Below are positions 12,809 through 40,186 of a stretch of DNA of 43,159 nt, in pieces; position 1 is the stretch's first letter, and every line of letters starts with the position of its first letter. Both the position numbers and the translations under genes were made by a program. Location: the IMG/VR virus record IMGVR_UViG_3300025652_000144, positions 1 through 43,159 of that record; one strand, written 5' to 3'. This DNA is from a virus. The notes under the pieces are model-generated. The model searched no databases. It was given only the letters and a program-made list of their open reading frames with translations, and had not been told where the DNA came from.

Positions 12809-12833
12809 ATTATATTAGCCAAGCTAATATAAT
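12809..12833. promoter_or_regulatory. operator-type palindrome, site 1 (upstream of lysis gene)
   Basis: A perfect inverted repeat with 11-base arms, ATTATATTAGC and GCTAATATAAT, is separated by CAA. Its core (12814-12828) matches the shared motif ATTAGYNNNRCTAAT found upstream of six other blocks. It lies nine bases after the endolysin stop and 35 bases before the next ATG. No T-run follows, so an intrinsic terminator is unlikely. Confidence 0.6.
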
Positions 12834-12868
12834 ACCGAGCAAGTACATCAACCGTTGAGGAATACATT

Positions 12869-13117
12869 ATGCGTTACTTACTTATTTTACTAGCTTGCGT
12901 ACCCGCGCTAGTTCTCGGACAGTCCTTAGAAGAAACCGGAACGCTTCACCGTTGGGACTACATTGACTTAGTAATGGGGGTTTTATCCACAATGGGTGGC
13001 GGAGCCGCGTTAGCAGCTTACGTCCCACTAAAAATCCAAAAAGCCATTCCTGGCGTCCGAATGCTGATTAATCTTGTTGGTCAGAATTTCCGCAACGCTA
13101 AAAATAACAAAGACTAA
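12869..13117 (+). CDS. small membrane protein, holin candidate (82 aa)
   Basis: The ATG has GAGG eight bases upstream. Residues 1-18 form a signal-like hydrophobic segment (MRYLLILLACVPALVLG). A second hydrophobic stretch lies at about 32-53 (IDLVMGVLSTMGGGAALAAYV), followed by a basic C-terminus ending in NAKNNKD. Two membrane segments, a charged tail and a position right after the endolysin gene fit a holin. A palindromic operator candidate sits just upstream, so this gene may open its own transcript. Holin sequences are too diverse to confirm by reading. Confidence 0.55.
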   Translation: MRYLLILLACVPALVLGQSLEETGTLHRWDYIDLVMGVLSTMGGGAALAAYVPLKIQKAIPGVRMLINLVGQNFRNAKNNKD

Positions 13118-13134
13118 ACCGGGGGAGAGGTTAT

Positions 13135-13377
13135 GTGGAGAACTTTACTAATGAGACCATCGCAGCAATCGGTATCGGAGGGTACATCGCTCTCCAACTC
13201 TTCTCTAACGTCCTTGAAAAAATTTACGAAAATCGCTCAAGTCGCCGTGCTGGCCACGACTGCGTTTCTTCTGATGAGTTCCACCAACTCAGAAGAAAGC
13301 TCGAAAGCCACATCGCACATTGCAGAATCAACACAGAAATAGAGCGGCAACTTAAGGATCAGAAACGAAATGGATGA
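13135..13377 (+). CDS. small membrane-anchored coiled protein, lysis-associated candidate (80 aa)
   Basis: A GTG start at 13135 lies seven bases after GGAG and gives MENFTNETIAAIGIGGYIAL, then one hydrophobic segment (about residues 9-27) and a charged helical region (DEFHQLRRKLESHIAHC). A single N-terminal anchor with a helical body fits an inner-membrane spanin or a holin-like accessory. The ATG at 13133 opens a different frame of 69 residues over the same DNA, which looks less protein-like but cannot be excluded. The 3' end overlaps the next small frame by eight bases. Confidence 0.5.
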   Translation: MENFTNETIAAIGIGGYIALQLFSNVLEKIYENRSSRRAGHDCVSSDEFHQLRRKLESHIAHCRINTEIERQLKDQKRNG

Positions 13378-13528
13378 CGCGGCCGTTATTGCCAAACGTA
13401 ACAAATCAATCGCGGAGCAGATAGATGCTATCAAGAATGATAAAGACCTCGCTATGCGCAGGACTGTTCATAGCTCAGCTATGTATGAGCTTGGGCGCAA
13501 AAGCTCAAAACTGCGACCTAAGCGCTGA
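13370..13528 (+). CDS. possible 52-aa basic protein overlapping both neighbours
   Basis: The ATG at 13370 follows AAGGA by eleven bases and opens MDDAAVIAKRNKSIAEQIDA, ending in KLRPKR. It overlaps the end of the previous frame by 8 nt and the start of the next secreted protein by 104 nt. The peptide is charged, helical and without a membrane segment. It could be real and coupled, or could be leader sequence. No family is recognised. Confidence 0.3.
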   Translation: MDDAAVIAKRNKSIAEQIDAIKNDKDLAMRRTVHSSAMYELGRKSSKLRPKR

Positions 13529-13946
13529 TCCAATAAGTTGCACGGTTAAGATAGCAGCCGAATGGTCTCAACCGACGAGCCGAGAAGATGGGTCACCGTT
13601 AACACAGCCTGAGATTAGTAAATACCAACTCGTAGCTGTGCAAGCCAGCGGTATAAGTTCAATCCCTACAAAAGACGTACTAACGTGCGGCCAGTGTTGG
13701 GACGTACCGGCTAGCGATACGACGGCAACCATCAACAAAACGATTAAGTTAAATAAAGCGGACGTCATAGACGACGGTAATGTAAGTATTGCGGTAGCTA
13801 TACGAACGTTTGATGACGCGAGCAGAGCTTCTGAATGGACAGACTTGTCATATGTTGATTTAGTTTTCCCTCAAGAAGTTATTAATGAGTTGGTGCCCCC
13901 CATAAAAAAGACCCAACTGTTAAACGTCGTGATTACTTTCGAGTAA
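13425..13946 (+). CDS. secreted FN3-like protein (173 aa)
   Basis: GGAG seven bases upstream supports the ATG at 13425; a second ATG four codons later is possible. Residues 1-28 form a signal peptide (MIKTSLCAGLFIAQLCMSLG core) with a likely cleavage after AKA-Q. The mature part has paired cysteines (NCDL...ISCTV and CGQCW) and a fibronectin III-like pattern (VKIAAEWSQPTSREDG, KYQLVAVQASG, VSIAVAIRTFDDASRASEWT). No lipobox is seen, so it is not a classic outer spanin. It may be a periplasmic or surface accessory, or a virion decoration. The function is unknown. Confidence 0.55.
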   Translation: MLSRMIKTSLCAGLFIAQLCMSLGAKAQNCDLSADPISCTVKIAAEWSQPTSREDGSPLTQPEISKYQLVAVQASGISSIPTKDVLTCGQCWDVPASDTTATINKTIKLNKADVIDDGNVSIAVAIRTFDDASRASEWTDLSYVDLVFPQEVINELVPPIKKTQLLNVVITFE

Positions 13947-13994
13947 TTATCGACTGGCTTCTAATATTCATTAACGGTCTTTTTTAGGAAAAAT

Positions 13995-14756
13995 ATGAGC
14001 GCGGTGAAGAGGTTTCTAAAGGTGTTGAGTAATATGTTTAAAAGTATTTTAGGTTTCGAGTGTGTGTCGCGAACGCCGGTACTTCCGGGTGATGGCCTAT
14101 CGGTAGGGCGAGACACTATCGCGGTACACAACCTCGCAACTGATGGGCCTTTGGTTTATGAGGCTTGCGTTGGGTCTATGCCAGTGACAAGTAATACCAG
14201 CACTGCTGACTACAGAGAGCAGCCATATTACGATTCCAGCACCGGTCAGATTGACCATAACGCCAGCTGGGGTCAACAGGGCTACCTAAGCGACCACCGT
14301 TTTTACCACCTAACAACCGGCCAGGTAATACGACTTGAGCGTTTATCCTTTTACGACGGCTCAGGCACTGAGCCTGAAGGCGGCGGGAGCAGCCGTCTGC
14401 GGTTGGATGTCACATTTTCAACACGCCAAAACCGAAGAAATTTACCGCCCCTGGGTGAGCCCAACAATTTCTATTTCGCTCCGAGAAATCCATATACTGC
14501 CTCTACTATTCCTGGCACACCGTTTAAGCCGATCAATAAAATTGTCGTTGACTTTCCTTACGATGAAAGGACTGAGGTATTGGAATATACCCTGGCTACC
14601 GACGATAATTTTGATGATTACGGCAGCATCGGCCTCTACGACGACACCAATGCTCTTACGATGGGTAGCAGCAAATTGCTCAATGGCGGTGTCCCTCACG
14701 ACCACGGTAATAACATTGCAGGCCACACGCGCCCTTACAGGGTGACCATCACATGA
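13995..14756 (+). CDS. hypothetical beta-rich virion-associated protein (253 aa)
   Basis: AGGA precedes the ATG by six bases. An amphipathic N-terminal helix (MSAVKRFLKVLSNMFKSILG) is followed by a Gly/Thr/Asp-rich beta-type protein with no recognised domain. It ends in an ATGA overlap with the next gene. With the next two genes it forms a coupled trio of similar composition between the lysis cluster and the nozzle gene, which suggests minor virion or tail-decoration proteins. I do not recognise a family. Confidence 0.5.
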   Translation: MSAVKRFLKVLSNMFKSILGFECVSRTPVLPGDGLSVGRDTIAVHNLATDGPLVYEACVGSMPVTSNTSTADYREQPYYDSSTGQIDHNASWGQQGYLSDHRFYHLTTGQVIRLERLSFYDGSGTEPEGGGSSRLRLDVTFSTRQNRRNLPPLGEPNNFYFAPRNPYTASTIPGTPFKPINKIVVDFPYDERTEVLEYTLATDDNFDDYGSIGLYDDTNALTMGSSKLLNGGVPHDHGNNIAGHTRPYRVTIT

Positions 14757-15322
14757 AGCGCGCAAGACAACCGACCCACGACTTAAGGCTGGCCTCTCCC
14801 GACGAAACTTTCACGATGATACCTGCTCATTTTTCACTAAAGGAAGATGCGTTCGCCGGTTACGAAATCGGCGACGGGCAATCAGCTTTTTTAGATGGCA
14901 ATAGCTCAAATAACGCAAGCGCACCGGTTCGCTTCGCTAACTACCCTGAGCATTCAAACACTGTTCAAATTCGAAAAATTAGGTGGCAAAACAAGTTTTA
15001 CGACGATTCTGGCGCACATACTTACGATGGCCTATTTAGTAATTATCAAATAACGCTAACCGTTGATCAGGACGCCACTGCTCTTCTGACGGGTGGGCGC
15101 AGTTGGAGAAAGGTACGTTTTCGAAATTTCGACGCCGACACAGAGATGACTCTCTACCGAAAAGACGCAATTATTATTGCTAAGCCGGGTAGGGATACGC
15201 TGCCGGGTACGTCCACTGTTAGCTGGTACTGGGGAACCACCCACACCGCCATCAACAATATTTTTAAGCCTACAGTCAGTAGTGTGAATGTCGAGTGGTT
15301 TTACGAAGAGGAGTACAAGTGA
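14753..15322 (+). CDS. hypothetical beta-rich protein (189 aa)
   Basis: It starts in an ATGA overlap with the previous gene and ends in a GTGA overlap with the next, so all three are probably translated together. The sequence is rich in aromatic and polar residues (YQITLTVDQDATALLTGG, STVSWYWGTTH) typical of beta-structure in phage tail proteins. It has no signal peptide or membrane segment. No family is recognised; a virion role is inferred from position. Confidence 0.5.
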   Translation: MKRARQPTHDLRLASPDETFTMIPAHFSLKEDAFAGYEIGDGQSAFLDGNSSNNASAPVRFANYPEHSNTVQIRKIRWQNKFYDDSGAHTYDGLFSNYQITLTVDQDATALLTGGRSWRKVRFRNFDADTEMTLYRKDAIIIAKPGRDTLPGTSTVSWYWGTTHTAINNIFKPTVSSVNVEWFYEEEYK

Positions 15323-15966
15323 GCTTTTTATTATCAGGCGTATCGAGCGTGGCTAATGCAGTCGAAGGCACAGTTGATGCTGACAGCTTTATCACTGATT
15401 GCCGGGCCTTCTTACAAAGCAAAGTACCTGAAGGTTTTTTAGCGCCTTCTTATGACGAGCTCTTCGCGATGATGGAAGCATCCTTCGCGATAGCCGGGGC
15501 AGGCCCAACAGCACTCCATCGCACGATCAAAGACGCAAGCGGTAATTTGGTCAACACCACTAAAATGATTTCCAACAACCAAGTGCTGCTCAGTGTTAAA
15601 GACGTTGCGGCTAATAGAGTAGTCGCCGTCTTATCAGGCGACTTAGCAAAAGGCCAATTTACGTTTACTAACGGCTACCGCAGGCCAGACCAGCAAGGCA
15701 GTGTTAGCTGGGTGTTTAGCGAGGCTGTCATGGACGCTAGTACCGATTGGTTTTACGACAACGACGTTACCAGCATACGCTGCGTATACCCCACAGTAGT
15801 CTACGGACACCTGCAATTTTTAACCGCGCTGCTTGAGGCCGATGGGTGCATCAGCTCTAACGAACAGACGATGACATCGCCTTCCTACGGCGAAACAACA
15901 ATATTGACAATAACCTTTGACCGTGAAGAGAAAGCACGGTTGAAAGCAATTAAAGACGGAGATTAG
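15319..15966 (+). CDS. hypothetical protein (215 aa)
   Basis: I choose the GTG at 15319: it overlaps the previous TGA (GTGA) and has a strong GAGGAG five bases upstream, whereas the GTG at 15295 lies inside the previous gene with no ribosome site. The product begins MSFLLSGVSSVANAVEGTVD. The middle part has beta-structure like its neighbour (GSVSWVFSEAVMDASTDWFY). The WFY ending of this motif recalls VEWFYEEEYK at the end of the upstream protein, so the two could share a fold. Function unknown. Confidence 0.5.
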   Translation: MSFLLSGVSSVANAVEGTVDADSFITDCRAFLQSKVPEGFLAPSYDELFAMMEASFAIAGAGPTALHRTIKDASGNLVNTTKMISNNQVLLSVKDVAANRVVAVLSGDLAKGQFTFTNGYRRPDQQGSVSWVFSEAVMDASTDWFYDNDVTSIRCVYPTVVYGHLQFLTALLEADGCISSNEQTMTSPSYGETTILTITFDREEKARLKAIKDGD

Positions 15967-15968
15967 TA

Positions 15969-16277
15969 ATGGCAGTAATTTTAAGCACAACAGGTTCAAC
16001 AACTACTTATTACCCTAACTCGGCGGGGGTTCATGTTCCCGATGATTCATTGATAGCAGTTAGTGGCGCTGCAGGTATAAGCGGTAACCTAGAATACAAA
16101 ACCTCAGAAAACACTTGGGTTGACGTTCCAGATAGCGACGGCAATGCGACTCTAGCACCTGAGTACTTAAAACCAATACTCGGTGGTAATGGCCTCTTCG
16201 TTAGGATTAAAGTGACTCAAGCACCGACCACAGACGCGCCTTACGCTTTCCACGTAAACTTCGACGGACGCCGGTAA
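15969..16277 (+). CDS. small hypothetical virion-type protein (102 aa)
   Basis: It starts two bases after the previous stop. The protein is Thr/Ser/Gly-rich and beta-type, with NTWVDVPDSDGNATLAPEYL resembling small head- or tail-decoration domains in which a 'value plus noise' pattern is repeated. It ends with YAFHVNFDGRR. It lies seven bases before the nozzle-like gene. No catalytic features are seen. Confidence 0.45.
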   Translation: MAVILSTTGSTTTYYPNSAGVHVPDDSLIAVSGAAGISGNLEYKTSENTWVDVPDSDGNATLAPEYLKPILGGNGLFVRIKVTQAPTTDAPYAFHVNFDGRR

Positions 16278-16284
16278 AAAGCCA

Positions 16285-27174: not shown

Positions 27175-27191
27175 TATTAGCGTCACTAATA
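27175..27191. promoter_or_regulatory. operator-type palindrome, site 2 (integrase)
   Basis: TATTAG and CTAATA are separated by CGTCA. The site matches the shared motif and lies 20 bases before the integrase ATG and just after the candidate promoter, where a bound protein would block transcription. Confidence 0.6.
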
Positions 27192-27211: not shown

Positions 27212-28243
27212 ATGGCCACCTTCGTCAATCGACCCACGGGCACACTCGCCCGAATCCGTAAGCACGGATTCCCCACCGTTTCGAAAACATTTAAAACTAA
27301 GACAGCCGCGCGCGCGTGGGCCAACAAAACTGAAGACGCGATGGATTCAGGCGCGTGGCTTGCCGACGAAGAGGCGGCAACGATTACTGTCGCGCAGATG
27401 TTTGACCAGTGGCAGGCTTACGTCCACCCGATCAAACCTTTTTGTAAAAGCAAACTTTCATCGATCGAGTTCCTCAAGCTGCATTTTGGAAGTTGCTCAC
27501 TGGCTGAAGTGACGCCTAAACTCGTGATGGATTTCGGTGCTAAACGTCGACAAAACGTGGCGCGTGCAACGCTGCAAAAAGAGTTGTCGTATTTTGCTCA
27601 GGCCGTCGACTTCGGCGTGACTATGTTTGACTTACCTATTAAAGGTAATCCTGTTAGAGAAGCGACACGCGCAATGGCGCAGATCGGCATGACGGGGGGA
27701 GGGCGTCAGCTTGAACGCAGGCTTAACAAGGGAGAGTTCGAGCGCCTAATTAGCGCCGCTTCACACCGTGCTAGTCGCTGGATGGTGCCTGTGATTGAGG
27801 TCGCCGTTCACACCGCTATGCGGCGTGGGGAAATACACGGTCTGCGATGGTCTGATCTAGACTTCGAGGCTGGCACAATCTTCATTCGCGACCGAAAACA
27901 CCCCACCGAGAAAATAGGTAACGACCAAACCATACCTATGTTTTCTCCTGCTCGCTCAGCTTTGTTAACGGCGAGACAATACTCCAAGTATGAGGACACC
28001 GTGTTCCCTGTTAAAACAGCTAAGGCTATTACCGCTGCGTTTACCCGAATAAAAAACGATGCAGGGATCGAAGACTTGCGTTTTCACGACTTACGCCATG
28101 AAGGCGTCTCACGTTTATTCGAAAGAGGCTGGACTATTCCGCAGGTGGCGGCAGTCAGTGGGCACAGAGATTGGGCCCAGCTTAAACGCTACACGCAACT
28201 TAAACCAGGCGAACTGTTAGAGAACTACGAGAGAGTCAACTGA
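27212..28243 (+). CDS. int: tyrosine-type integrase (343 aa)
   Basis: AGGAG precedes the ATG by eight bases. An N-terminal arm-binding region and an SAM-like core-binding domain (about residues 55-150) precede the catalytic domain from about 170. Catalytic residues can be placed: R204 in TAMRRGEIHGLRW, H292 and R295 in HDLRH, H318 in SGHRD, and the nucleophile Y327 in KRYTQL. It would integrate the phage DNA at attP, probably in the repeat-rich region just upstream. The 3' end overlaps the convergent excisionase-like gene by 19 nt. Its presence marks a temperate phage. Confidence 0.92.
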   Translation: MATFVNRPTGTLARIRKHGFPTVSKTFKTKTAARAWANKTEDAMDSGAWLADEEAATITVAQMFDQWQAYVHPIKPFCKSKLSSIEFLKLHFGSCSLAEVTPKLVMDFGAKRRQNVARATLQKELSYFAQAVDFGVTMFDLPIKGNPVREATRAMAQIGMTGGGRQLERRLNKGEFERLISAASHRASRWMVPVIEVAVHTAMRRGEIHGLRWSDLDFEAGTIFIRDRKHPTEKIGNDQTIPMFSPARSALLTARQYSKYEDTVFPVKTAKAITAAFTRIKNDAGIEDLRFHDLRHEGVSRLFERGWTIPQVAAVSGHRDWAQLKRYTQLKPGELLENYERVN

Positions 28244-28428
28244 CTTGATAAATAGTCGGCGACAGCTTCGGTGGGGAATAGATACTTCTTACCGCGTTTA
28301 ATGTGCGGTATATCGAGTTTACCCTTGTGGATTTGATTGTAGAGTGACTGTATTTTAAACGTAAGAGGCTGGCAAGGCTCCGCTAAATCCATAAATACCC
28401 CATATTCTTTTATTAGTAGGTCTTTCAC
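28225..28428 (-). CDS. excisionase/AlpA-like winged-helix protein (67 aa)
   Basis: The start is a GTG with GGAAG about seven bases upstream. The body SLYNQIHKGKLDIPHIKRGK, then YLFPTEAVADYL, is the MerR/AlpA-type HTH_17 pattern (helix-turn-helix, basic wing GKKYLF, final helix). Such proteins act as excisionases or transcription regulators. It converges on and overlaps the integrase gene by 19 nt and has operator site 3 just upstream, in its own unit below a terminator. A directionality factor is the likely role; a regulator of the operator family is the alternative. Confidence 0.7.
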   Translation of the reverse strand: MKDLLIKEYGVFMDLAEPCQPLTFKIQSLYNQIHKGKLDIPHIKRGKKYLFPTEAVADYLSSQLTLS

Positions 28429-28451
28429 TTATCACTTCCATTGGTTTTTAT

Positions 28452-28466
28452 ATTAGCGGTGCTAAT
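28452..28466. promoter_or_regulatory. operator-type palindrome, site 3 (excisionase-like gene)
   Basis: ATTAGC and GCTAAT are separated by GGT. In the gene's direction the site is followed by ATATAAAAACC and lies 23 bases before the GTG start. Confidence 0.6.
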
Positions 28467-28530
28467 TTACTGTGGTTAGTTTAACCAAAAACAAGTTGTT
28501 TGAGAACCTCATACTCGCGTTTTTTAAAAA

Positions 28531-28577: not shown

Positions 28578-29142
28578 AGAAACGGATGGCTAGGAGAGCA
28601 AACTTCTTTAGCACTTTACTAGATGGAGGGAGTGTATCGCACCCGTAGATGTTAAAGGTTTTAACGCCGCGTTCTTTTACGACAAAGACTTTCGGTTTAA
28701 TAGCACCGTCGAGATACTTCATCTCGATAACTTCTAGGTGAGATCCGTGAACGACATCGAACTTTCTACCAAACGCTTTGAAAGAAGGGACATCGACTTC
28801 GATTAAAAATGAATGCTCGGATTCTGAGGTGTAGTGAGAGGCCGTAGTTTTCTTTTTTGCCGCATCCGACAATTGGTAGTGCGTTTCTATCTGTTTAATA
28901 TTTGGCAACTGCGCAATTATTGTCGGATCGATTTCGACAGGAGAAACGTCAAGGAAGTTAGCCATTTTAATGACCGCTTGAGGCCCCATCTCAGTGAGAT
29001 TATTTAGGTATTGAGAGATGGCACCTTGTGTCCAGCCTAACTGTTTAGCAGCTTTGACTTGAGTAAACTTCATCTCTGATTTTTTTCTCTCCCAAATCCG
29101 TCTGAGATTATTCGCGACTTCCTTTTGGTGTGCTTTGTTCAT
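28573..29142 (-). CDS. HTH transcription regulator, CI-type repressor candidate (189 aa)
   Basis: I start at the ATG at 29142 because GGAGG lies five bases upstream; the frame is open 39 nt further. Residues 27-67 form an HTH_3/XRE domain: FTQVKAAKQLGWTQGAISQY, with the recognition helix TQGAISQYLN, then a further helix ending in NFLDVSP. The C-terminal half (FLIEVDVPSFKAFGRKFDVV onward) is beta-type and may be for oligomerisation. I do not see the Ser/Lys dyad of S24/LexA-type self-cleaving repressors. It is the best candidate for the protein that binds the seven palindromes. Its gene overlaps the nuclease gene by 35 nt and ends in a terminator. Confidence 0.75.
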   Translation of the reverse strand: MNKAHQKEVANNLRRIWERKKSEMKFTQVKAAKQLGWTQGAISQYLNNLTEMGPQAVIKMANFLDVSPVEIDPTIIAQLPNIKQIETHYQLSDAAKKKTTASHYTSESEHSFLIEVDVPSFKAFGRKFDVVHGSHLEVIEMKYLDGAIKPKVFVVKERGVKTFNIYGCDTLPPSSKVLKKFALLAIRFY

Positions 29143-29536
29143 TATCCCCTCCGAGGGCAGTCCGTGAGATCCAGCCTGCAATGTCCTTTACTGGTAGGCT
29201 GTGCTCGTTGAAGTAGGCTTTGGTGATCGGAACCCCAAAGTCATCGCATATTATCACGCCTCTCTGCGCATTTCCTATTACTAATGCGACATCTGGGGTG
29301 CTTTCTTTAGCTCGGTTGAGCCATGCGATTTGCAAAGGAGAGAGACAAGTGCGGAGGACAGTCGACTCTCTTTTGGGCAAAGTCTTAATGAATTTATATT
29401 CTACGAACAAAGCTCCAGCTGGCCCCATATAGTAACTGTCGGGCACACCTCCGGTATAGGTGTCGTGAATCTTCCAGCGGTACACATCAGGGTGTAGCTT
29501 TTTATGGACAGACCTGATGAAAGAGTGCTCAGTCAT
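29108..29536 (-). CDS. PD-(D/E)XK nuclease, VRR-NUC-like (142 aa)
   Basis: The signature GGVPDSYYMG...LFVEYKF places catalytic residues at D33, E46 and K48 (PD-x12-ExK). VRR-NUC and Holliday-junction-resolvase-type small phage nucleases have this layout. It would process branched or replicative DNA. The ATG lies only two bases from the T-rich tail of the upstream terminator and has no Shine-Dalgarno sequence. Translation may therefore depend on read-through transcripts, or be leaderless from a promoter inside the terminator. It overlaps the repressor-like gene downstream. Confidence 0.7.
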   Translation of the reverse strand: MTEHSFIRSVHKKLHPDVYRWKIHDTYTGGVPDSYYMGPAGALFVEYKFIKTLPKRESTVLRTCLSPLQIAWLNRAKESTPDVALVIGNAQRGVIICDDFGVPITKAYFNEHSLPVKDIAGWISRTALGGDNEQSTPKGSRE

Positions 29537-29537
29537 A

Positions 29538-29564
29538 TAAAATAAAGGGGGGCGAACCCCCCGA
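29538..29564 (-). terminator. GGGGGG-TTCG-CCCCCC intrinsic terminator
   Basis: On the minus strand a six-pair G-C stem closed by a TTCG (UUCG) tetraloop is followed by TTTATTTTAT, seven bases after the stop of the upstream gene. A GC stem, an extra-stable loop and a T-rich tail make a strong intrinsic terminator. The next gene's start codon follows two bases later. Confidence 0.85.
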
Positions 29565-30263: not shown

Positions 30264-30302
30264 TGAGTATTTACTCCGCTGCTGGTTAGTTTAGTGGTTG
30301 GT

Positions 30303-30668: not shown

Positions 30669-32026
30669 GCGGCTTTCCTCGTGTCGTTGAGCGTTTTTAA
30701 AATCCCTAGTAAGTTGTCCATGCGTTCGACTTTACTTCGTAGTTTTTCGTAGACGTCAGGCTCCCAAGTATCGCGAGCTGCGATATGGATAACTTCCGTG
30801 CGTTGCGTTTGCCCTGCGCGATAGATGCGGCGGTTGAACTGTTGATAATGCTCAGCGTTGTAAGTAGGCGAGGCCCAGATAACGCTGGTCGCTTTTGTCA
30901 TCGTGAGGCCGTGACCTGCTGATTGCGGGTGACAGAACACAACTTGTAACTGCCCGGCTTGCATCCGGTCGACGATGTCTTTGCGTTTATGTGCAGGCGT
31001 GCTGCCATCGATGGTCGCGTGTTTGATCTTGAGCTTGGTTGCCAGATCAGCTAAGTGACGTTGTTCGTGCTTCCAGTTGAACGCAACAAGTGAATGTTTG
31101 CGTTCGAGAATAAGCTGCATCACTAAGTTGTAACGCTCGTCGTGTACTGACTGCACTTCGCCATCTTCGGTATACACACTGCCCGTGCATAGCTGCAGTA
31201 GTTTCTTAACTTTTGCGCCTGCGTGGATCGCGTTGATGGTTTGACCGTCGGTTTCTAGTACGGAGTCATTAGCTAGGGTTTTGTAGGCTGCCATGATCTT
31301 AGGCGGCAGTGTGACCAAGCTGGTCTGGTAGGTTTGCTCTGGCATGTCGAGGCAGTCTTCGAGCATGAAGCGCACGTTGATGTCGCTGATGGCCGCTGCA
31401 ACAATAGCCTCTGCATCGTCTTTGTCTTTCCACTCGTTAGCAAAGCCGTTGAATTTAGGCGAGCACACCGACGCGCGGAATGAATAGAAACGTCTGCCTA
31501 GTCTCTCGCCATCGTCAACTATTAAGGTTGGGTGCCAGATGTCCGTAATAGTGTTGCTGTTGGGTGTACCTGACATGGCTATGCGGTACTTGAACTCTTG
31601 CGCTATTTGTAATGCGGCTTTACTACGCTGTGAGTCTTTGTTTTTGAACGCGGTGAACTCGTCGATACATAACGTTTCAAAACCAGTGAGCAGCTCTGTG
31701 TTTTTGAGAATCCACTTAACGGCATCGTGGTTAGTGATAACGATGCTAGCATCACTCTGGAAAGCCGCTTTACGATTCTTGGCATACGCAACGGCGTAAG
31801 TGATGTCAGGTTGGAACTTATTAAGGTCATCGCCCCAGCTGGCTTCGAGAATCGAGAGCGGGGCAAGCACGAGCATTCGGCCACCTTTGTTGCGCTTGTG
31901 GTTATCGGCGTAAGCATCGATAACACTGCGCGTCTTACCTGTTCCAGGGTCGCTTGTGATTAAACAGCGATCCTTACTAAGAATAAAACGTGTTGTTGTA
32001 CTCTGATGTTTAAACGGTTTAAACAT
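30665..32026 (-). CDS. SNF2-family SF2 helicase (453 aa)
   Basis: I start at the ATG at 32026 (MFKPFKHQSTTTRF). The open frame runs 54 nt further up, but that part overlaps operator site 4 and the end of the previous gene. Walker A is SDPGTGKT (residues 25-32), motif II IDEFTAFK with D122-E123, motif III MSGTP near 151-155, and motif VI QFNRRIYRAGQT. These are the hallmarks of the SNF2/Rad54-like SF2 helicases found in many phage replication modules, where they help replication or branch migration. The gene is preceded by an operator-like palindrome 26 bases upstream and so seems to open its own unit. Confidence 0.88.
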   Translation of the reverse strand: MFKPFKHQSTTTRFILSKDRCLITSDPGTGKTRSVIDAYADNHKRNKGGRMLVLAPLSILEASWGDDLNKFQPDITYAVAYAKNRKAAFQSDASIVITNHDAVKWILKNTELLTGFETLCIDEFTAFKNKDSQRSKAALQIAQEFKYRIAMSGTPNSNTITDIWHPTLIVDDGERLGRRFYSFRASVCSPKFNGFANEWKDKDDAEAIVAAAISDINVRFMLEDCLDMPEQTYQTSLVTLPPKIMAAYKTLANDSVLETDGQTINAIHAGAKVKKLLQLCTGSVYTEDGEVQSVHDERYNLVMQLILERKHSLVAFNWKHEQRHLADLATKLKIKHATIDGSTPAHKRKDIVDRMQAGQLQVVFCHPQSAGHGLTMTKATSVIWASPTYNAEHYQQFNRRIYRAGQTQRTEVIHIAARDTWEPDVYEKLRSKVERMDNLLGILKTLNDTRKAA

Positions 32027-32052
32027 ATCATCACTCGTTGATTGGTTTAGAA

Positions 32053-32069
32053 TATTAGCAGGACTAATA
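32053..32069. promoter_or_regulatory. operator-type palindrome, site 4 (SNF2 helicase)
   Basis: TATTAG and CTAATA are separated by CAGGA. A further CTAAT half-site continues at 32070-32074 at a six-base step, as also seen at site 7. The site lies 26 bases before the chosen helicase ATG. Confidence 0.55.
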
Positions 32070-33839: not shown

Positions 33840-33915
33840 AAATAACTCCTATTGTGGCTATAGCAAAAAGTGCAAGTTCAAAGTAAGTAAACAGGTCGAA
33901 CAGTGCTTTGATCAT
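33787..33915 (-). CDS. 42-aa single-pass membrane peptide
   Basis: The ATG lies in an ATGA overlap with the upstream 50-residue gene. There is no own Shine-Dalgarno, so translation would be by coupling. One hydrophobic segment (ALFDLFTYFELALFAIATIG) is followed by VIYDYCRN and a polar tail. It overlaps the next gene by 53 nt. A longer open frame extends upstream, but its N-terminal part is out of phase with the overlapping genes and looks non-coding. Confidence 0.4.
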   Translation of the reverse strand: MIKALFDLFTYFELALFAIATIGVIYDYCRNTFSPRPSVSYI

Positions 33916-34064
33916 AGAAATGTACCGATGGTGTAGTAGAACAAGAGAGCAACAACTGCGATTGCTGCGGCGACATAAAAACCGATGGTGAATGCCTGAG
34001 CTAATATCGCTAGCACTAGAGCGAATACAATGGCTAAAGCAAAATAAACAATGAGGTTGGTCAT
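33912..34064 (-). CDS. 50-aa two-segment membrane protein
   Basis: ATG at 34064 lies in an ATGA overlap with the upstream gene, with GGAG ten bases before. The protein is nearly all hydrophobic: MTNLIVYFALAIVFALVLAI, then a short turn (LAQAFTIG) and a second segment FYVAAAIAVVALLFYYTIG. Two transmembrane helices with a minimal loop resemble small phage membrane toxins, holin-like proteins or exclusion proteins. Its early-region location argues against a lysis role. Confidence 0.55.
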   Translation of the reverse strand: MTNLIVYFALAIVFALVLAILAQAFTIGFYVAAAIAVVALLFYYTIGTFL

Positions 34065-34297
34065 GGCGCGTGATCTCCGTAGTAGGGCGAAGCGTGAACT
34101 TCGTTATATAAGATTGTGTCGCCGTCCTCATTGATCTCGACGTCTTCGAACATGGTCGCTTCGCAGCAGTCCGATACGTACTTAATTAAGACGTCGTTAG
34201 CGACGCTACCCCAGAACTCGGTAGGGCCAATCCCTAGGTCGGTATTTGATCCTGTGCAGGGCTGCTTGCATTCTTCACATATATAGGGTGGGTACAT
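34061..34297 (-). CDS. small zinc-ribbon-like protein (78 aa)
   Basis: I choose the ATG at 34297, eight bases after AAGGAG; a TTG six bases earlier is too near to the ribosome site. The N-terminus MYPPYICEECKQPC has cysteines at 7, 10 and 14, and YVSDCCEATMF carries two more near the middle, a likely zinc knuckle. The rest is acidic. It heads the chain of small membrane-protein genes and overlaps the first of them by 4 nt. No family name is recognised. Confidence 0.6.
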   Translation of the reverse strand: MYPPYICEECKQPCTGSNTDLGIGPTEFWGSVANDVLIKYVSDCCEATMFEDVEINEDGDTILYNEVHASPYYGDHAP

Positions 34298-34299
34298 AA

Positions 34300-34566
34300 T
34301 CAAGGCTCCTTAACTTCAATTTCCGTGTAGTAAGTGTTGCCGTCGTGTTTTTCCTTAGTTGCTATGTAACCAAGTAAGTTGACGTAGTGGCGTGATGGCC
34401 CGTATGTAAAATACCAATTGTTTTCGTCGTCTTCTTGCAGAATCGACCATATGTGATCTTCGCTGTAGCCGGTTTCTTGCATTGCTTGGGCGCGTGTATC
34501 GAAGAAATCGCCGTTGTGATCTCTTATTTCCTCAAAGGGGAAATCTTCGTCTTGAAATACGGGCAT
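34300..34566 (-). CDS. hypothetical acidic protein (88 aa)
   Basis: AGGAGAG seven bases upstream supports the ATG. The protein has MPVFQDEDFPFEEIRDHNGD, FDTRAQAMQETGYSEDHIWS and YGPSRHYVNLLGYIATKEKH. This pattern of Asp/Glu plus aromatic residues suggests a small soluble protein with a helical N-terminal half and a beta C-terminal half. Acidic small early proteins in phages can be inhibitors or DNA mimics; here that is speculation. It lies 16 bases after the nuclease gene. Confidence 0.55.
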   Translation of the reverse strand: MPVFQDEDFPFEEIRDHNGDFFDTRAQAMQETGYSEDHIWSILQEDDENNWYFTYGPSRHYVNLLGYIATKEKHDGNTYYTEIEVKEP

Positions 34567-34582
34567 CTTTTTCTCTCCTTAG

Positions 34583-35338
34583 TTAATCGACTCCCCATAC
34601 GCACTGTGGGTCATCGCCTTTTCTGAACGAGCACCAGCGGCAGGAATTCTTGCTAGGTGTCGGTGCGAAATCTTCTTCTGTGGTCATTGCGATTGCTCGC
34701 TTGTGCCAGTTAGGGGCGAACACCATCGCTTCTTCGCGGGTGTAGCTCTTAACGGTGGTCTCGTTCTGGTCTAGATACCAAAACTCGACGTTGACGAATT
34801 GAATGTGCGGGTAGCGGAAGAAAGTACCGATGGCATAGAGCAGGCCTTGTTGTGAATGGCCAATCTCGTTGCCATACTTCTTACCTGTTTTGTAGTCGAT
34901 GACGCGCGCGGATGTCTCGTCTTCGTTGACTAGCGCATCGAGCTTGATGCGTGCCCAGGTGGCTTTTTCCATCCAGCCTACGGGTTTCCAGTCTAGGTCA
35001 AAGCCCCAGTCTCCTTCGAGTTCTACCTTCGCATCAGCGTACAGCTCTCGCAGTTCTTTGAACTGGCCTTCGAACTTTTCTAATTCTTTAGGTAACTCAC
35101 CGATTGATCCGTTTACGTAATCTTCAGCCAGTTGATGGATATGCGTACCGCGATCAGCTGCTGGGCCACTAGGTTCTTTGACACCTTTGACGCGACTGAT
35201 GTATGTTCGATATGGGCACTCTTCGTAAACTTTGAGTGCTGAGTAAGACCAGGCTCTGACTTGCCCCATCTTCTCAGGCTTTTCGAATTCTTTTATCTTG
35301 CTTTGATCGGGACGTTTCTCTTGAACTAAGTTAACCAT
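34583..35338 (-). CDS. RecB/Cas4-like PD-(D/E)XK exonuclease with Fe-S cysteines (251 aa)
   Basis: GAGGAT precedes the ATG by seven bases. Motifs are in order: AADRGTHIHQLAEDYV with H66; RIKLDALV with D134; ARVIDYKTGK with D148 and K150; SQQGLLYAI with the Q-x3-Y motif. Cysteines C41 (ECPYR) and C233, C236 and C246 (SCRWCSFRKGDDPQC) are placed as in the iron-sulphur-binding AddB/Cas4 nucleases. It would resect DNA ends in phage recombination or replication. An operator palindrome lies 23 bases upstream. It heads the operon of small early genes. Confidence 0.88.
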   Translation of the reverse strand: MVNLVQEKRPDQSKIKEFEKPEKMGQVRAWSYSALKVYEECPYRTYISRVKGVKEPSGPAADRGTHIHQLAEDYVNGSIGELPKELEKFEGQFKELRELYADAKVELEGDWGFDLDWKPVGWMEKATWARIKLDALVNEDETSARVIDYKTGKKYGNEIGHSQQGLLYAIGTFFRYPHIQFVNVEFWYLDQNETTVKSYTREEAMVFAPNWHKRAIAMTTEEDFAPTPSKNSCRWCSFRKGDDPQCVWGVD

Positions 35339-35361
35339 TACTAATCCTCGTTATAGTAAAG

Positions 35362-35380
35362 GTATTAGTATAACTAATAC
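35362..35380. promoter_or_regulatory. operator-type palindrome, site 5 (exonuclease operon)
   Basis: Perfect 8-base arms GTATTAGT and ACTAATAC are separated by ATA. The site lies 23 bases before the ATG and is 18 bases wide between the stop of the primase-helicase (35381) and the nuclease gene. Confidence 0.65.
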
Positions 35381-37882
35381 TTACAAAGCTGCGAGTAACT
35401 TTTTATCGCTGTCGTCAAAATACTTTTCGATAATTTCTTCGTACCGCTCGTCGTTCATGACCCAGTTGGTTTCTACACCGCGAATTGGGCTACAGATTCG
35501 ATCAGCTAAGTGAGCGCGTTTGCGTATTCTTTCTAGTCCGCACCGCTCTGCTTTTTTAGTGAATTCGCGCTGCGACAAGCGGTCGTCAGTCAGCACGATG
35601 TAGACAATTCTTAGATGTTCTAGGGGAACCATTGTGTAAGGACTGTTGCGATCCGCGATCCACGCTTTGAGGAAGCGTTGCGCGGTGAGGATTTCTTGTC
35701 CCTGCATTACATTCGTCAGCTCTATATCAAGCAAATCGACGAAGAAATCTAAGTCACCATTCTTAACGGCTGAGAAGAATTCCTCTATGATTGACATAGT
35801 GACTTGCTGCATTTTAGCCTTGGCCGTATTCTCGATTGGTGTACGCACTAATCGTTTGTCTACTTTGTACGTGCTAAGTATTCCTGCTAAGTTCGGCAAC
35901 TCTTTTTCTATTTCATCGATGTTGGCGATGACTTCTGGGTACACCTCTTCGAGTTTCTTTTCTTGTCGGGGCGCTATGTTGTAGCGCCTGTCGCCTTCTT
36001 CAATCTTTACTGCATCTGCACGGTTAGTGAGGAAGATAAAGTTAGTGAAGTTAGGCATCTCAACTTGGTTGCTACGCATCGCTCGTATGGTCATAGTATT
36101 TTCAGTGATGGCGTTCTTGAGTTTGTCAGCAATCTTCATCGCGCCTGAGTTGGCCGAGGCCATGTGGAACTCATCGACAACTAAGAAGATAGCTTGACGC
36201 ATGTACAAGTTGAACTGTTCTTCTATGTTCTGTAAGGCTCGCATCGGTACGTGCTCGTCACCGAACAAAGGCCTGAGTACCTTGGTGTAGAAGATACCTT
36301 TACCTGTGCCAGGCACACCTTGCATCACCCAAGCGGTCATTGCTTTGCGCCGTGTTTGAAAGATGTACGCTAGCCAGTTAATAAAACGCTCGGCTTCGTC
36401 TGCCTCACCGCCTAGAATGTGCTTGGTGAGTTTGTACACCAAGGGGCAGGCGTCTTGTAGTTTATCGATGTCGCCCATAGTGAGCGGTTCGTCAGGCTCT
36501 ACAGGGTTGAGCATGTAGTCTGTTTGTCGATACATGTTGACGTGGTAGGGCACGTTAGTCAGGTTCACTGCAGCGTCGTTCGATGCCGGGTCAAAAACGA
36601 CTCTTGCATCGGGTATGAAATCGGGCTTAGGCCTACCGTGCGATCGCATAAACCCTTCGGTGCTGGATGAGCTGCACGGAAGTAGTGGGAACTCTTTTGT
36701 AAACTGGTTGAGGTTAGGGTCAAACACGCCGTTGTAGTAAGTATCGGTATAGTAATCACGAAGAACGATAGGTTGGTTGGCTCGGCCTTGCTTATCAAGC
36801 TCTGCTTTGTAACTCTCAAACAGGGTTGCGTAGAAATCAGGATCTGACTTCTCGATCGAGAACAGCGGCTCACCTTTGAAGTTGTGCATATACGTCGGAT
36901 CATCGAGCATAAAAAAGTAAGCATTGCTGTCGCCTCCGTTTATGTTGCAGCGTATGTAAGGCGGCTGGGTGTCGTCGACGATGGTGATCGACATCCTGTC
37001 TGGGTTTTGTAGAACTTCTTGTGTCTTGTTGGCTAGCGTCACCATAGTGACCTTAGCCTTCTTAGCATTAAATCCTTTAGCAGTACGTAGCTCATTCTTA
37101 ACAGCGTTAGACTGCTGGTGGATGACTTCAGGGCTGATGTCTTCCATCAGCGCGGCTAGGTCTAGCGTTGGGTATTTACCCACGACCCGCGTGACCCGCT
37201 CTGAGGGAGAGGCGAACGGGTCAGCGGTGGGATCTTCAAAGGTAGGAGGAGCAATGAAGATGAGTTTAGAGTTGTCAGCGACGCTCAGATCAACAGGATA
37301 CTTGAGTGAATGTCCGTTGGCTGACAGCTCGATCTGGGACTTAAACAAGTCGGATTCGAAGTTCGCAGACTGCAAAAATAGCTTCATGGCTTTTGCAGGC
37401 ATAGCGTAGGTCAGAAAAATAAATATATGTAGCGATACTTTTTCAGCTTTTAGCCCGAGGCTTGATGAAGCCTGAGCAATATAGCTGACGTTGTGAAACG
37501 GTTCAGGCAGCTCGGCTAACACCTGCGCAGCTAATCTGGTAACGTCATTCGCCACGAACTTAGCAGGCTGTATGTTGCCTGGTAGTTTGATGCCGTCTAT
37601 GTCCAGCACCAGCAGGTTCGAGTAGGCTATGCGATCGCATTTTCCTGCTCGGCTCTCAGCGTTTAGTGGTCTCTTTAGCGGGCCTTTGAGTAAGCAATGG
37701 CCGCTGTTACCGTGCGCGTTGAGTCTAGCCTCGAACTGAGCTAGACCGTTCTCGTCTAGTGATACCTGTTCGTGGTACGAGTTTACTTTTTTGACGTGGG
37801 GGTAGGGAGTAAACCCATCTACCGGTGAATGTTTTTTAGATAACTTGAGGCCATTACTCGCCTCTAGAAATGTGAGTTCCAT
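35381..37882 (-). CDS. PrimPol-like primase fused to SF3 helicase (833 aa)
   Basis: GGAGGG precedes the ATG by a few bases. The N-terminal part has archaeo-eukaryotic primase signatures: LLVLDIDGIKL with D94 and D96, KVSLHIF with S150 and H152, and a VDLSVADNSKLIF acidic region at about 198-205. The C-terminal part has an SF3-type (DUF5906) ATPase: Walker A GVPGTGKG (522-529), Walker B IFLVVDEF, and NFIFLTNRADAV as motif C/sensor. This is the replicative primase-helicase of the phage and would work with the family A polymerase. A palindrome lies 20 bases upstream. It is followed, 42 bases later, by the nuclease operon. Confidence 0.88.
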   Translation of the reverse strand: MELTFLEASNGLKLSKKHSPVDGFTPYPHVKKVNSYHEQVSLDENGLAQFEARLNAHGNSGHCLLKGPLKRPLNAESRAGKCDRIAYSNLLVLDIDGIKLPGNIQPAKFVANDVTRLAAQVLAELPEPFHNVSYIAQASSSLGLKAEKVSLHIFIFLTYAMPAKAMKLFLQSANFESDLFKSQIELSANGHSLKYPVDLSVADNSKLIFIAPPTFEDPTADPFASPSERVTRVVGKYPTLDLAALMEDISPEVIHQQSNAVKNELRTAKGFNAKKAKVTMVTLANKTQEVLQNPDRMSITIVDDTQPPYIRCNINGGDSNAYFFMLDDPTYMHNFKGEPLFSIEKSDPDFYATLFESYKAELDKQGRANQPIVLRDYYTDTYYNGVFDPNLNQFTKEFPLLPCSSSSTEGFMRSHGRPKPDFIPDARVVFDPASNDAAVNLTNVPYHVNMYRQTDYMLNPVEPDEPLTMGDIDKLQDACPLVYKLTKHILGGEADEAERFINWLAYIFQTRRKAMTAWVMQGVPGTGKGIFYTKVLRPLFGDEHVPMRALQNIEEQFNLYMRQAIFLVVDEFHMASANSGAMKIADKLKNAITENTMTIRAMRSNQVEMPNFTNFIFLTNRADAVKIEEGDRRYNIAPRQEKKLEEVYPEVIANIDEIEKELPNLAGILSTYKVDKRLVRTPIENTAKAKMQQVTMSIIEEFFSAVKNGDLDFFVDLLDIELTNVMQGQEILTAQRFLKAWIADRNSPYTMVPLEHLRIVYIVLTDDRLSQREFTKKAERCGLERIRKRAHLADRICSPIRGVETNWVMNDERYEEIIEKYFDDSDKKLLAAL

Positions 37883-37902
37883 TAACCCTCCTACAGGTCA
37901 AG

Positions 37903-37919
37903 TATTAGTCCGGCTAATA
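37903..37919. promoter_or_regulatory. operator-type palindrome, site 6 (primase-helicase)
   Basis: TATTAG and CTAATA are separated by TCCGG. It lies 20 bases before the primase-helicase ATG, between it and the csrA-like gene stop (37937). Confidence 0.6.
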
Positions 37920-37936
37920 TACACGGGCGGCAAAAA

Positions 37937-38116
37937 TCAGCTGATCTTTTTTAGGTATATTTCTTCGCGATCGATTTTGACGTCGTTTTCAGCTTCGAAA
38001 GTTAGCCGAACTTGGTTTTTGTCGATCTTTGATACCTTAATACTTGCTAGTAGGCCGTTCTGATCGTGGATAATTATGTTTTGGTCTGGTTTGCGTGTGA
38101 GCACTAGTCGTGACAT
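37937..38116 (-). CDS. csrA: CsrA/RsmA-family translational regulator (59 aa)
   Basis: The sequence MSRLVLTRKPDQNIIIHDQN, then NQVRLTFEAENDVKIDREEI (residues 34-53) and YLKKIS, matches CsrA throughout: the initial LxLTRK strand, III, NQVR(L/I).(I/F)EA and V.I.REEIY. L6, R8 and R50 correspond to E. coli CsrA L4, R6 and R44, which contact RNA. The family dimerises and binds GGA in RNA hairpins, often over ribosome sites. The start codon overlaps the polymerase stop (TAATG), so it is coupled to the polymerase. It is too short for usual gene-length cut-offs. It may control host or phage messages; target unknown. Confidence 0.88.
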   Translation of the reverse strand: MSRLVLTRKPDQNIIIHDQNGLLASIKVSKIDKNQVRLTFEAENDVKIDREEIYLKKIS

Positions 38117-39924
38117 TATTTGCTATATCCTTTGTCGAACCCACCTTCTGCAGCGAGAGGTAGGTCTGGAGCCCATGATGGGGGAGTACACATGTGAGAA
38201 ATTAATTTTTCCATTGTAGCATGAGGATCTTGCTCGGAGCCAAGAAAAATAATTTCATCGTGTACGGTTAATACTATGTCCCCTATTAAAGTTGGGTCTC
38301 TTTGTATCCTGAGCATGCCGTCAGTGATAATAATGCGCGCTAGTGCTTGCACAATATTCTCAACGATGCTTCCGCCCCAGGTGTACTCTTTTTTACGTGC
38401 CTCGTAAGTCAGTTGCCCGGACATGCTGTCTATGGTCAAGTTGTGGTACTTGAGGGCGAGTTTATTGGGCAGATAAACACTGCGATCGGTAAAGGTCAAG
38501 CAGCGCCACTTCTCAAAGTAACCTGCGTTCATGGTAGAGGCGAGCTTTTCTTCCATGCGCCGCCATAACAGCGGTATGTTAGGGTAGGTTGAACGGTACG
38601 TGTTGACGATCTTTTGCGCTTGGTGCGTTGGCAGCTTAAGCGGTGGGCCCATAACGCCGGTCTCTAGCGTCCGGTCAAACGTAGCGTGCCCCATTCCGAA
38701 ACCTAAGCCAAGCACTGCTACCTTACCGACGAATCGTTCAGTTGGGTCGTCGTACTTATTGATGGTTCGGTTATAAATATTTTTAGCAAAGATACTGTAG
38801 ACGCATTTGTTGGCTCTGAACTGCTCAAGCAGCTCAAGCTCACCGGCTAGCCAGGCTAAGACGCGTGCTTCGATAGCTGACAAGTCAGCGACAAAGACGA
38901 GCTTCCCTTCGGGGGCTTCCAACGCTAGGCGCAAGGGTGAGTTGCGCGGCATGTTCTGCACGTTAAGTTTTTCGGCTCCTCCGAATCTCCCCGTGTGGGC
39001 GTTGTAATAACCGATCGGCATGCTGATGGTGCCATCTGGGTTACGTGCGTCGATGAAGCGTTGTGCCCGGGTCTCACTGATGCGACTCTTTGCTGCGCCT
39101 CGTGCTGCCCATATATGGTCGTAGTTAGGGTTGGCTTTTTTTAGTTCTAGATACCCTTTGTCTGCTTTGCCGAACGCAGGTATCGGTTTTCCTGTGGTGG
39201 GGCTGGTCTTAGTGGGTACGGTAAGGCCTAACGATTCAACCAATTCGGCAAATTGCTTGTTACTTGAAAGTATTTTGGCGTCATACCCGCTGGCTTCAAT
39301 AAGCCCTTTACTGCGTGCGATTTCTGAGTCGCGGTGTTTGGTTAGCATTTCGAGGTTCGCGATCAGCTTTGGCTCGCAGAACATACGGCAGGTCATGTCA
39401 ATCAAATCGTGCTCGTCGTCTATGACGGCCGTCGACAGCGTTCTGTAAACCATATAAGTCAGCTCGACGTCCTGTATGCAATACTCACCGAGCTCTTCTT
39501 CTAGGTCAGGGCTTAGGTCTAGTATGCCTTTGGTTTTTTCAAGGGCATCGCCTTTTCTCAGTTTTTCATCGTCAGGCCACATACGCATGGCTACTTCTTT
39601 TAATGACGAGCCTCTACCGGGCCAGGTGGCTTTCGCTAGGGCTTTGGTATCAGCATAATAAGCTGGAGTAAGGCCGTAATAACGAGTGAGGATGTAGCCG
39701 TCGAAAGGGGTGTTGTGCGCTATGAGCGTGGAGTTGCTCCAGTCTATTTCTCGTAGCGCGTCTTCGGTCTCTTCTGAGTTGTACCATTGTGTTTCTCCAT
39801 CGTCGATTTTTATACCGACGCCATGTACATGGAACTCCTTGGCTTTTACGTAAGACATGGTGTTGAGTTTTGTTAGGTTGTGTTTTGAGTCGTAGTAGGT
39901 CTCAAAGTCAAGCGTGACGTGCAT
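38116..39924 (-). CDS. family A DNA polymerase with 3'-5' exonuclease (602 aa)
   Basis: I start at ATG 39924, eight bases after AAGGA; the frame is open 72 nt further. The exonuclease is DEDDy type: D6 and E8 (LDFETYYD), D75 (HNTPFDG), and Y148/D152 (YCIQD). Polymerase motif A has D347 (ADLSAIEARVLAWLAGE), motif B R397, K401 and L405, F409, G410 (RFVGKVAVLGLGFGMG), and motif C H555, D556 and E557 (VHDEI). L405 aligns with E. coli Pol I F762 and F409 with Y766. There is no 5' nuclease domain. It is the replicative polymerase; its stop overlaps the csrA-like gene. Upstream it overlaps the small 79-residue gene by 17 nt. Confidence 0.92.
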   Translation of the reverse strand: MHVTLDFETYYDSKHNLTKLNTMSYVKAKEFHVHGVGIKIDDGETQWYNSEETEDALREIDWSNSTLIAHNTPFDGYILTRYYGLTPAYYADTKALAKATWPGRGSSLKEVAMRMWPDDEKLRKGDALEKTKGILDLSPDLEEELGEYCIQDVELTYMVYRTLSTAVIDDEHDLIDMTCRMFCEPKLIANLEMLTKHRDSEIARSKGLIEASGYDAKILSSNKQFAELVESLGLTVPTKTSPTTGKPIPAFGKADKGYLELKKANPNYDHIWAARGAAKSRISETRAQRFIDARNPDGTISMPIGYYNAHTGRFGGAEKLNVQNMPRNSPLRLALEAPEGKLVFVADLSAIEARVLAWLAGELELLEQFRANKCVYSIFAKNIYNRTINKYDDPTERFVGKVAVLGLGFGMGHATFDRTLETGVMGPPLKLPTHQAQKIVNTYRSTYPNIPLLWRRMEEKLASTMNAGYFEKWRCLTFTDRSVYLPNKLALKYHNLTIDSMSGQLTYEARKKEYTWGGSIVENIVQALARIIITDGMLRIQRDPTLIGDIVLTVHDEIIFLGSEQDPHATMEKLISHMCTPPSWAPDLPLAAEGGFDKGYSK

Positions 39925-40147
39925 GTTGGCAGTCCTTTGCGATTGGTTGGTTAGCGTTGCATTCTTGTGCAGCGTAAATGTCGGCGTACCGTTCATTAAA
40001 TTCTTCTAGTAAATATTTGTGGGTTAGAGGCCTGCGGCCAAGTAGGTAGACCTCAAGGTATTCTCGGAATTGGTCAGTGTTAACACCGGCTTTTTGGTGT
40101 AACTCCCTGGTTGATGCGTCTATTTTTAGATATTTTTGAACTTTCAT
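39908..40147 (-). CDS. hypothetical small protein heading the polymerase operon (79 aa)
   Basis: A strong AGGAGG precedes the ATG. The product starts MKVQKYLKIDASTRELHQKA and continues helical and charged (QFREYLEVYLLGRRPLTHKY, LLEEFNERYADIYAAQEC). It could be a small helical adaptor or antirepressor-like protein; no family is recognised. It overlaps the polymerase gene by 17 nt and has operator site 7 just upstream, so it is first in the polA-csrA operon. Confidence 0.6.
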   Translation of the reverse strand: MKVQKYLKIDASTRELHQKAGVNTDQFREYLEVYLLGRRPLTHKYLLEEFNERYADIYAAQECNANQPIAKDCQHARHA

Positions 40148-40164
40148 TACTTCCTCCTAGAAAA

Positions 40165-40186
40165 TAATAGTAACACTAATACTAAT
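40165..40186. promoter_or_regulatory. operator-type palindrome, site 7 (polymerase operon)
   Basis: TAATAG, TAACA, CTAATA: one mismatch from the consensus left arm (AATAG instead of ATTAG). A second CTAAT half-site follows at 40182-40186 as at site 4. It lies 17 bases before the ATG of the small first gene and overlaps the likely promoter. Confidence 0.5.

Follow-up and report, generated by a model that had tools for sequence, protein, structure and literature searches.

Dispersed 17-bp palindromes as probable operators of a CI-like repressor in uncultured marine phages

The 43-kb virus contig IMGVR_UViG_3300025652_000144 of IMG/VR (43,159 nucleotides, analyzed over its full length and called the window below) carries seven short palindromes with the core ATTAG-N5-CTAAT, each a short distance ahead of a gene. 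Each palindrome is very probably a 17-bp operator to be bound by dimers of the CI-like repressor that the phage itself encodes on its minus strand, a predicted helix-turn-helix (HTH) protein, and together the operators would form a decentralised lysogeny regulon. Instead of a single OL/OR region, every block of early, integration, excision or lysis genes would have an operator over its promoter. While the repressor is present, every operator would be occupied and RNA polymerase blocked at that promoter; upon its loss or inactivation, all blocks would open together. Comparison with related contigs establishes, at the level of sequence, the motif, its conservation, its linkage to the repressor and integrase genes, and its co-variation with the repressor recognition helix.

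A palindrome family conserved in marine phages

A motif scan of the window found six exact cores and one core with a single mismatch, at the coordinates and with the spacers (read in gene direction) given in a preliminary description of this DNA (Table 1). All seven are wholly intergenic, in a window of which intergenic DNA makes up 4.0%. The longer consensus TATTAGYNNNRCTAATA is matched perfectly by five of the seven sites, with one mismatch each at 28451 and 40165. As first described, the start codon follows at 18-27 bp for six sites and at 40 bp for the site in the lysis region. The chance expectation per window, originally put at 0.01, was of the right order of magnitude; recomputation gives 0.047-0.051 with the 15-bp core and about 0.0009 with the 17-mer and its pyrimidine (Y) and purine (R) spacer positions. 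Two of the original statements need correction. First, the core does occur inside a gene: an exact copy at 10938-10952, within the gene for a 2131-amino-acid virion protein, fits the long consensus at 16 of 17 bases. Because the probability of such a core arising by chance is alone about 0.05, we do not claim that it is functional, and it is either a chance match or a roadblock-type site. Second, the sites do precede block-opening genes, in gene runs that are largely co-directional, but the blocks are small (one to four genes) and are not whole transcription arms.

Relatives were collected by scanning IMG/VR with the primase, polymerase, VRR-NUC-type nuclease and HTH proteins, which yielded about 160 loci (L numbers below). 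The motif is conserved across a large group of uncultured marine phages. The first 84 relatives and the window together contain 221 exact cores in 1.21 Mb, and whole-record counts in 11 motif-bearing contigs range from 3 to 15 per contig, with no occurrence of the reversed control pattern. Exact copies lie mostly 10-40 bp upstream of open reading frame starts. Among the genes that follow them are those for exonuclease, SNF2, primase and excisionase and those of the polymerase operon; longer contigs add tail genes and further genes of the late region. A logo built from 76 non-redundant sites (those with different flanks) is symmetric, with T at position -1 and A at position +15 in 88% each, and its spacer has Y at position 5 in 96% and R at position 9 in 98%. 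This conservation, in early and late regions alike, supports the phage-wide protein-binding regulon originally proposed. Equal frequency of the motif inside genes and lack of conservation in related phages had been named beforehand as findings that would speak against such a regulon, and neither was found; a class of in-gene operators does exist in relatives.

In about 24 relatives (including L002:3389, L011:2604 and L030:8895), an operator of this class lies inside the 3' part of the DNA polymerase gene, with the primase operator about 320 bp further downstream. The Ile-Ser-x-Ala-Asn stretch of the polymerase is there always coded ATT AGY nnn GCT AAT, and nearby synonymous sites vary. Other clades have a palindrome at the same place in the polymerase gene in a shifted register. 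The polymerase-internal operator is absent from repressor-less relatives and from the window. Around the SNF2 gene start, many relatives also have two operators separated by about 200 bp (L023:13156/13357, L040:14943/15150, L012:6065/6272 and others).

The candidate repressor and its company of genes

The protein proposed to bind these sites has an HTH_3 domain, as do 33 of 33 members of its family. In an AlphaFold2 model (mean predicted local distance difference test score, pLDDT, 86.7), a lambda-type HTH is joined to a beta-rich C-terminal domain, and the recognition helix spans residues 39-46 with Gln39 as its first residue. The closest solved proteins by sequence profile are N-terminal domains of lambda CI (chains at 1.6e-07 to 2e-05), and beyond the HTH no sequence match to solved proteins was found. 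The best fold match of the full-length model (Foldseek) is the lambda-186 CI hybrid 7jvt (E 1e-6, TM about 0.5, 14% identity). No match to Peptidase_S24 was seen for the window repressor, nor among the 25 families listed for the 33 members at E<=1, so RecA-driven self-cleavage would not be expected. In most relatives, a homologue of the HTH protein is encoded at the same place, flanked by the VRR-NUC gene on one side and xis/int on the other. Some integrase-less relatives retain an HTH-only, Cro-sized version of about 86 amino acids (L069:11909-12169, L076:15546-15806).

To examine co-occurrence, contigs were grouped by VRR-NUC identity. Operators were found in 19 of the 20 groups with a full-length repressor, compared with one of the nine without (Fisher P=1.8e-5), and an integrase was present in 17/17 full-length-repressor groups versus 0/9 repressor-less groups. 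Repressor, integrase and motif were all absent from L008, L009, L075, L079, L080 and L081 in whole-record searches.

These figures bear directly on the alternative that survives best, which leaves the operators unchanged and makes the protein a Cro-like repressor that shuts off early genes during lytic growth, not a lysogeny repressor. Its gene lies in the early cluster without a divergent promoter of its own and may repress its own operon, and two groups without integrase (L069/L132, L076/L078) still have the short version that consists of the HTH alone. However, a full-length repressor and an integrase occur together in 17/17 groups, both are missing from all nine others, and size and predicted fold are CI-like, with what appears to be an oligomerisation-type C-terminal domain. 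We consider a Cro-like role improbable.

Sites and recognition helix change together

Presence and absence alone cannot separate the repressor from xis and int, because all are lost together in lytic relatives. Two natural changes of specificity, and a lone chromosomal homologue that is accompanied by the operators, point to the CI-like repressor. First, in the L061 clade the recognition helix TQGAISHY is replaced by KQSNFSHY, and the sites read TAGTA-N7-TACTA with no ATTAG core. This pairing holds in seven contigs found with the L061 repressor and was seen in the newly found contigs L196, L199, L200 and L201; the background of TAGTA-N7-TACTA is 19 in 2.5 Mb. Second, the repressors of L152 and L193, which are 42% identical to each other, both have Arg in place of Gln39, and half-site position 2 is G in 11/16 cases in these two versus 4/308 in phages with Gln39 (P=6e-14 over half-sites, a value that, like the contig counts, overstates independence because related phages share ancestry). 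In lambda, Gln44 reads A2. The first recognition-helix residue of the 933W repressor likewise sets operator position 2 (PMC3317979). For the mixed TAATA[CG] half-sites of L026, L034, L044, L045 and L074, no specific repressor residue could be matched.

Genome contigs yielded two binned phage contigs (L086 and L087) and, in L085, a solo repressor on a chromosome. The latter is a lone homologue, 37% identical, on contig CAJXUC010000071.1 (6839-7429) of a Gammaproteobacteria metagenome-assembled genome (MAG); the contig is without the other phage genes, and the homologue stands beside the type VI secretion genes TssB/TssC/Hcp. The exact 17-mer occurs just twice in the 3.4-Mb MAG, both times on the homologue's 10.5-kb contig (at 304 and 6499, with a near-match at 7953). 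No further repressor copies were found in 143 relatives of the MAG.

That chromosomal copy helps to weigh a second alternative, in which the sites are bound by the excisionase-like protein or by a host regulator. The excisionase-like protein has an HTH_17 domain, and xis and int disappear along with the repressor in lytic relatives, but in L085 repressor and sites occur although xis and int are both missing, and in L166 xis is present while the stretch covered contains neither a repressor nor a site. The sites also change along with the repressor recognition helix, and a host regulator would not vanish with the phage repressor or change its specificity phage by phage. Either binder is very unlikely. 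Both the HTH protein and the excisionase had been put forward as regulator candidates; co-occurrence and co-variation with the sites favor the former, and L085 and L166 argue against the latter.

Operators and promoters

Across relatives, TTGA stands exactly 17 bp before the right-half-site TAATAT on the gene strand at 14 of 70 sites, compared with 0-3 at other offsets and none at the same offset on the opposite strand. The exonuclease sites fit TTGC-18-TATACT, and the SNF2 and primase sites fit an extended TGnTAATAT. In the window, promoter-like hexamers TTGTAG-17-TAATAT overlap operator 1, and TTGAAC-17-TAATAT overlaps operator 4. The promoter claim is drawn solely from the position-specific enrichment in relatives. 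This enrichment and the fits at exonuclease, SNF2 and primase genes suggest that the core promoter lies under the operator, such that a bound repressor would exclude RNA polymerase. The apparent overlap of operators with promoters is clearest at SNF2 and is suggestive of steric repression.

The same geometry speaks to whether binding could activate transcription, as some XRE proteins do. The palindrome appears to span both the -10 element and the spacer between -35 and -10, where binding by proteins other than the MerR type typically represses, and relatives without protein and sites, such as L008, still carry the same genes. An activator is thus scarcely to be expected, and binding by the CI-like repressor probably represses, by covering the promoter.

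Least probable of all is a role as RNA, either as a 5'-leader hairpin that acts in translation or processing or as a hairpin promoter like those used by the N4 virion RNA polymerase: an inverted repeat does lie on the sense strand 18-40 bp before start codons, and a 7-bp stem with a 3-nucleotide loop can be drawn where the Y-R pair is complementary, but positions 5 and 9 lack base-pair covariation (C-G 15, C-A 22, T-G 15, T-A 19; P=0.81), positions 6 and 8 could pair in fewer cases than chance predicts (22 vs 27.5), the sites track a predicted DNA-binding protein, and the right half-site apparently serves also as the -10 element, which would leave much of the palindrome upstream of the transcript. 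Dyad symmetry without pairing therefore fits a protein dimer on DNA, in line with the original preference for a protein site over a hairpin. Virion RNA polymerase hairpin promoters were considered and set aside, the 2131- and 2158-amino-acid proteins matching only virion-structural/tail families.

Several observations, besides the shared ancestry noted above, weigh against a repressor-bound, promoter-covering operator family. First, the distant relative L004 has an integrase but neither repressor nor sites in a whole-record search. Second, five near-identical repressor-less contigs (L143, L145, L146, L149, L151) retain one or two operators. These stand at the exonuclease and SNF2 genes of a cluster that has lost repressor, xis and int, a pattern as expected of a recent lytic derivative. 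Third, the L154 group has a full-length repressor and just two degenerate sites, and L070 and L045 carry degenerate sites only. Fourth, SNF2-type promoters contribute most of the -35 signal (10/19, versus 4/57 elsewhere), and a strict sigma-70 consensus scan of the window from 26.5 to 41 kb found none at the sites, with promoter-like matches below chance; because of this, the promoter-covering step is weaker than the binding claim. Finally, the repressor gene overlaps the preceding nuclease gene and has no obvious promoter of its own in the window. A terminator-like hairpin (GGGGGG-TTCG-CCCCCC, with a T-rich tail) on the minus strand at 29547-29562, between the gp34-like and the nuclease-repressor genes, suggests that the repressor may have its own transcript. 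The repressor gene is probably itself under operator control.

Gene setting

The plus strand of the window encodes virion, tail and lysis proteins and the integrase. On the minus strand are genes for DNA polymerase A, primase-helicase, a PD-(D/E)XK nuclease, an SNF2 helicase, a Pam3 gp34-like protein, a VRR-NUC-type nuclease, the HTH protein and the excisionase-like protein, along with a presumed MoxR-type ATPase and a presumed metallopeptidase-like protein. The 82-amino-acid gene behind operator 1 comes after an endolysin-like gene. No tRNA was found in the window. By polymerase, primase and helicase, the nearest isolates are KPP25-like phages and Aeromonas phiA008, at just 30-38% identity, and no homologue of the repressor was detected among 50,697 isolate phage records at E 1e-5.

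Table 1. Palindromes and associated genes in the window
Feature	Position	Strand	Sequence	Context
Operator 1	12813..12829	+	TATTAGCCAAGCTAATA	40 bp before ATG of 82-amino-acid gene (12869-13117)
Operator 2	27175..27191	+	TATTAGCGTCACTAATA	21 bp before ATG of tyrosine integrase gene
Operator 3	28451..28467	-		One outer mismatch; 23 bp before GTG of excisionase-like gene
Operator 4	32053..32069	-	TATTAGTCCTGCTAATA	Before SNF2 helicase gene (ATG at 32026)
Operator 5	35363..35379	-	TATTAGTTATACTAATA	25 bp before ATG of PD-(D/E)XK exonuclease gene (34583-35338)
Operator 6	37903..37919	-	TATTAGCCGGACTAATA	21 bp before ATG of primase-helicase gene (35381-37882)
Operator 7	40165..40181	-		One core mismatch; 18 bp before ATG of 79-amino-acid gene, then DNA polymerase (38116-39996)
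In-gene exact core	10937..10953	+	TATTAGCTAAGCTAATT	Within 2131-amino-acid virion gene (6052-12447); motif scan
Tyrosine integrase	27212..28243	+		Pfam Phage_integrase 1.1e-26
Excisionase-like HTH_17 protein	28225..28428	-		HTH_17 2.8e-05
Putative CI-like repressor, 189 amino acids	28573..29142	-		HTH_3 9e-09; predicted lambda-type XRE HTH and beta-rich C-terminal domain
VRR-NUC-type nuclease gene (presumptive name)	29108..29536	-		Conserved neighbour in relatives; no Pfam match; overlaps repressor gene start

L011 (10490-10550) and about 36 other loci have a conserved H-type pseudoknot RNA of the sequence ACGG-NTTGATCC-A-CCGT-TGGTCAC-AACGGATCA, located in the gap that separates the Pam3-gp34-like gene from the start codon of VRR-NUC. 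Of the aligned cells 98.3% are paired, changes on both sides occur in 7/10 pairs, and the covariation score is 0.51, compared with 0.19 for shuffled sequences; no Rfam match was found. Some phages (L002, L070, L074) have tandem copies, and the window has a plain GC hairpin at that place and no pseudoknot. The element could be a riboswitch or a protein-binding leader for the nuclease-repressor genes.

Implications

The likely outcome of control by the CI-like repressor is lysogeny with superinfection immunity. A broader reading would be a marine temperate phage family that runs lysogeny through a fully decentralised CI regulon and whose immunity groups split by single recognition-helix changes (e.g., Gln39 to Arg, with A2 to G2). 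Operators within its DNA polymerase gene would serve as roadblocks or in looping, and a bacterial chromosome would have captured a repressor copy beside type VI secretion genes, there either giving immunity to these phages or regulating host genes. We offer this combination tentatively, as a conjecture less likely than not to hold.

Lysogeny control in uncultured marine phages is mostly deduced from the presence of an integrase. Here, repressor, operators and target promoters are readable from sequence in >100 contigs, lytic relatives without the whole module serve as natural controls, and the two natural repressor/operator switches offer a direct and cheap binding test. For this group, immunity groups and temperate versus lytic lifestyle would become predictable from metagenomes.

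Comparison with known systems

No description of this operator family was found in the literature, and several characterized systems share parts of it. The OL/OR operators of lambda CI (TATCACCGCCGGTGATA type) are likewise 17-bp palindromes, with half-site TATxA, and lambda CI has the same type of HTH; the invariant Gln28/Gln39 of the present family align with lambda Gln33/Gln44. However, lambda operators are clustered in two control regions, whereas those described here are single and scattered through the genome. Lambda also has divergent cI and cro genes; here no divergent cro was seen, and the repressor gene runs in the same direction as the nuclease gene upstream of it, which it overlaps. 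Finally, CI proteins of the lambda type are RecA-inducible through a self-cleaving S24 (Ser-Lys) C-terminal domain, a family to which no match was obtained here. The CI of phage 186, a non-lambdoid repressor that forms a 14-mer wheel, resembles the present protein in the C-terminal domain by a weak fold match only, to the hybrid 7jvt, which combines the lambda N-terminal and 186 C-terminal domains. Phage 186 CI uses distal sites in regulation (PMC8053113), but far more promoters carry operators here.

A precedent for the layout is mycobacteriophage L5 and its cluster A relatives, which have tens of repressor sites genome-wide, in promoters and in transcribed regions, and in which repressor and site immunity groups co-diverge and the lytic derivative D29 has lost the repressor (PMC6550527, PMC9283540). 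The layout described here is stoperator-like. Stoperators inside genes stop elongation, and the in-gene sites conserved in the polymerase gene of relatives could act in a comparable way. L5 stoperators differ in that they are asymmetric 13-mers, oriented with transcription, each recognized by a repressor monomer through its two DNA-binding domains, whereas the present sites are dyad-symmetric 17-bp palindromes that would suit a CI-type dimer. In SP-beta, the master repressor MrpR binds one conserved element, SPBRE, ahead of many prophage promoters (PMC10516654). MrpR differs in having a tyrosine-recombinase fold, and SPBRE is a 15-bp motif. The phiC31 repressor binds palindromic inverted repeats (CIBs) of about 17 bp that are scattered over early promoters; to our knowledge, both its host and the repressor itself are unrelated to those considered here.

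Judged from sequence, the same operator stands at many probable promoters and co-varies with one phage repressor, which would place the present system among dispersed prophage operator regulons, and in it a DNA-binding domain and a palindrome of lambda type appear together with a layout like that of stoperators. Dispersed operators as such are known; what is new is a palindromic version of CI type in which the DNA polymerase gene itself can contain operators.

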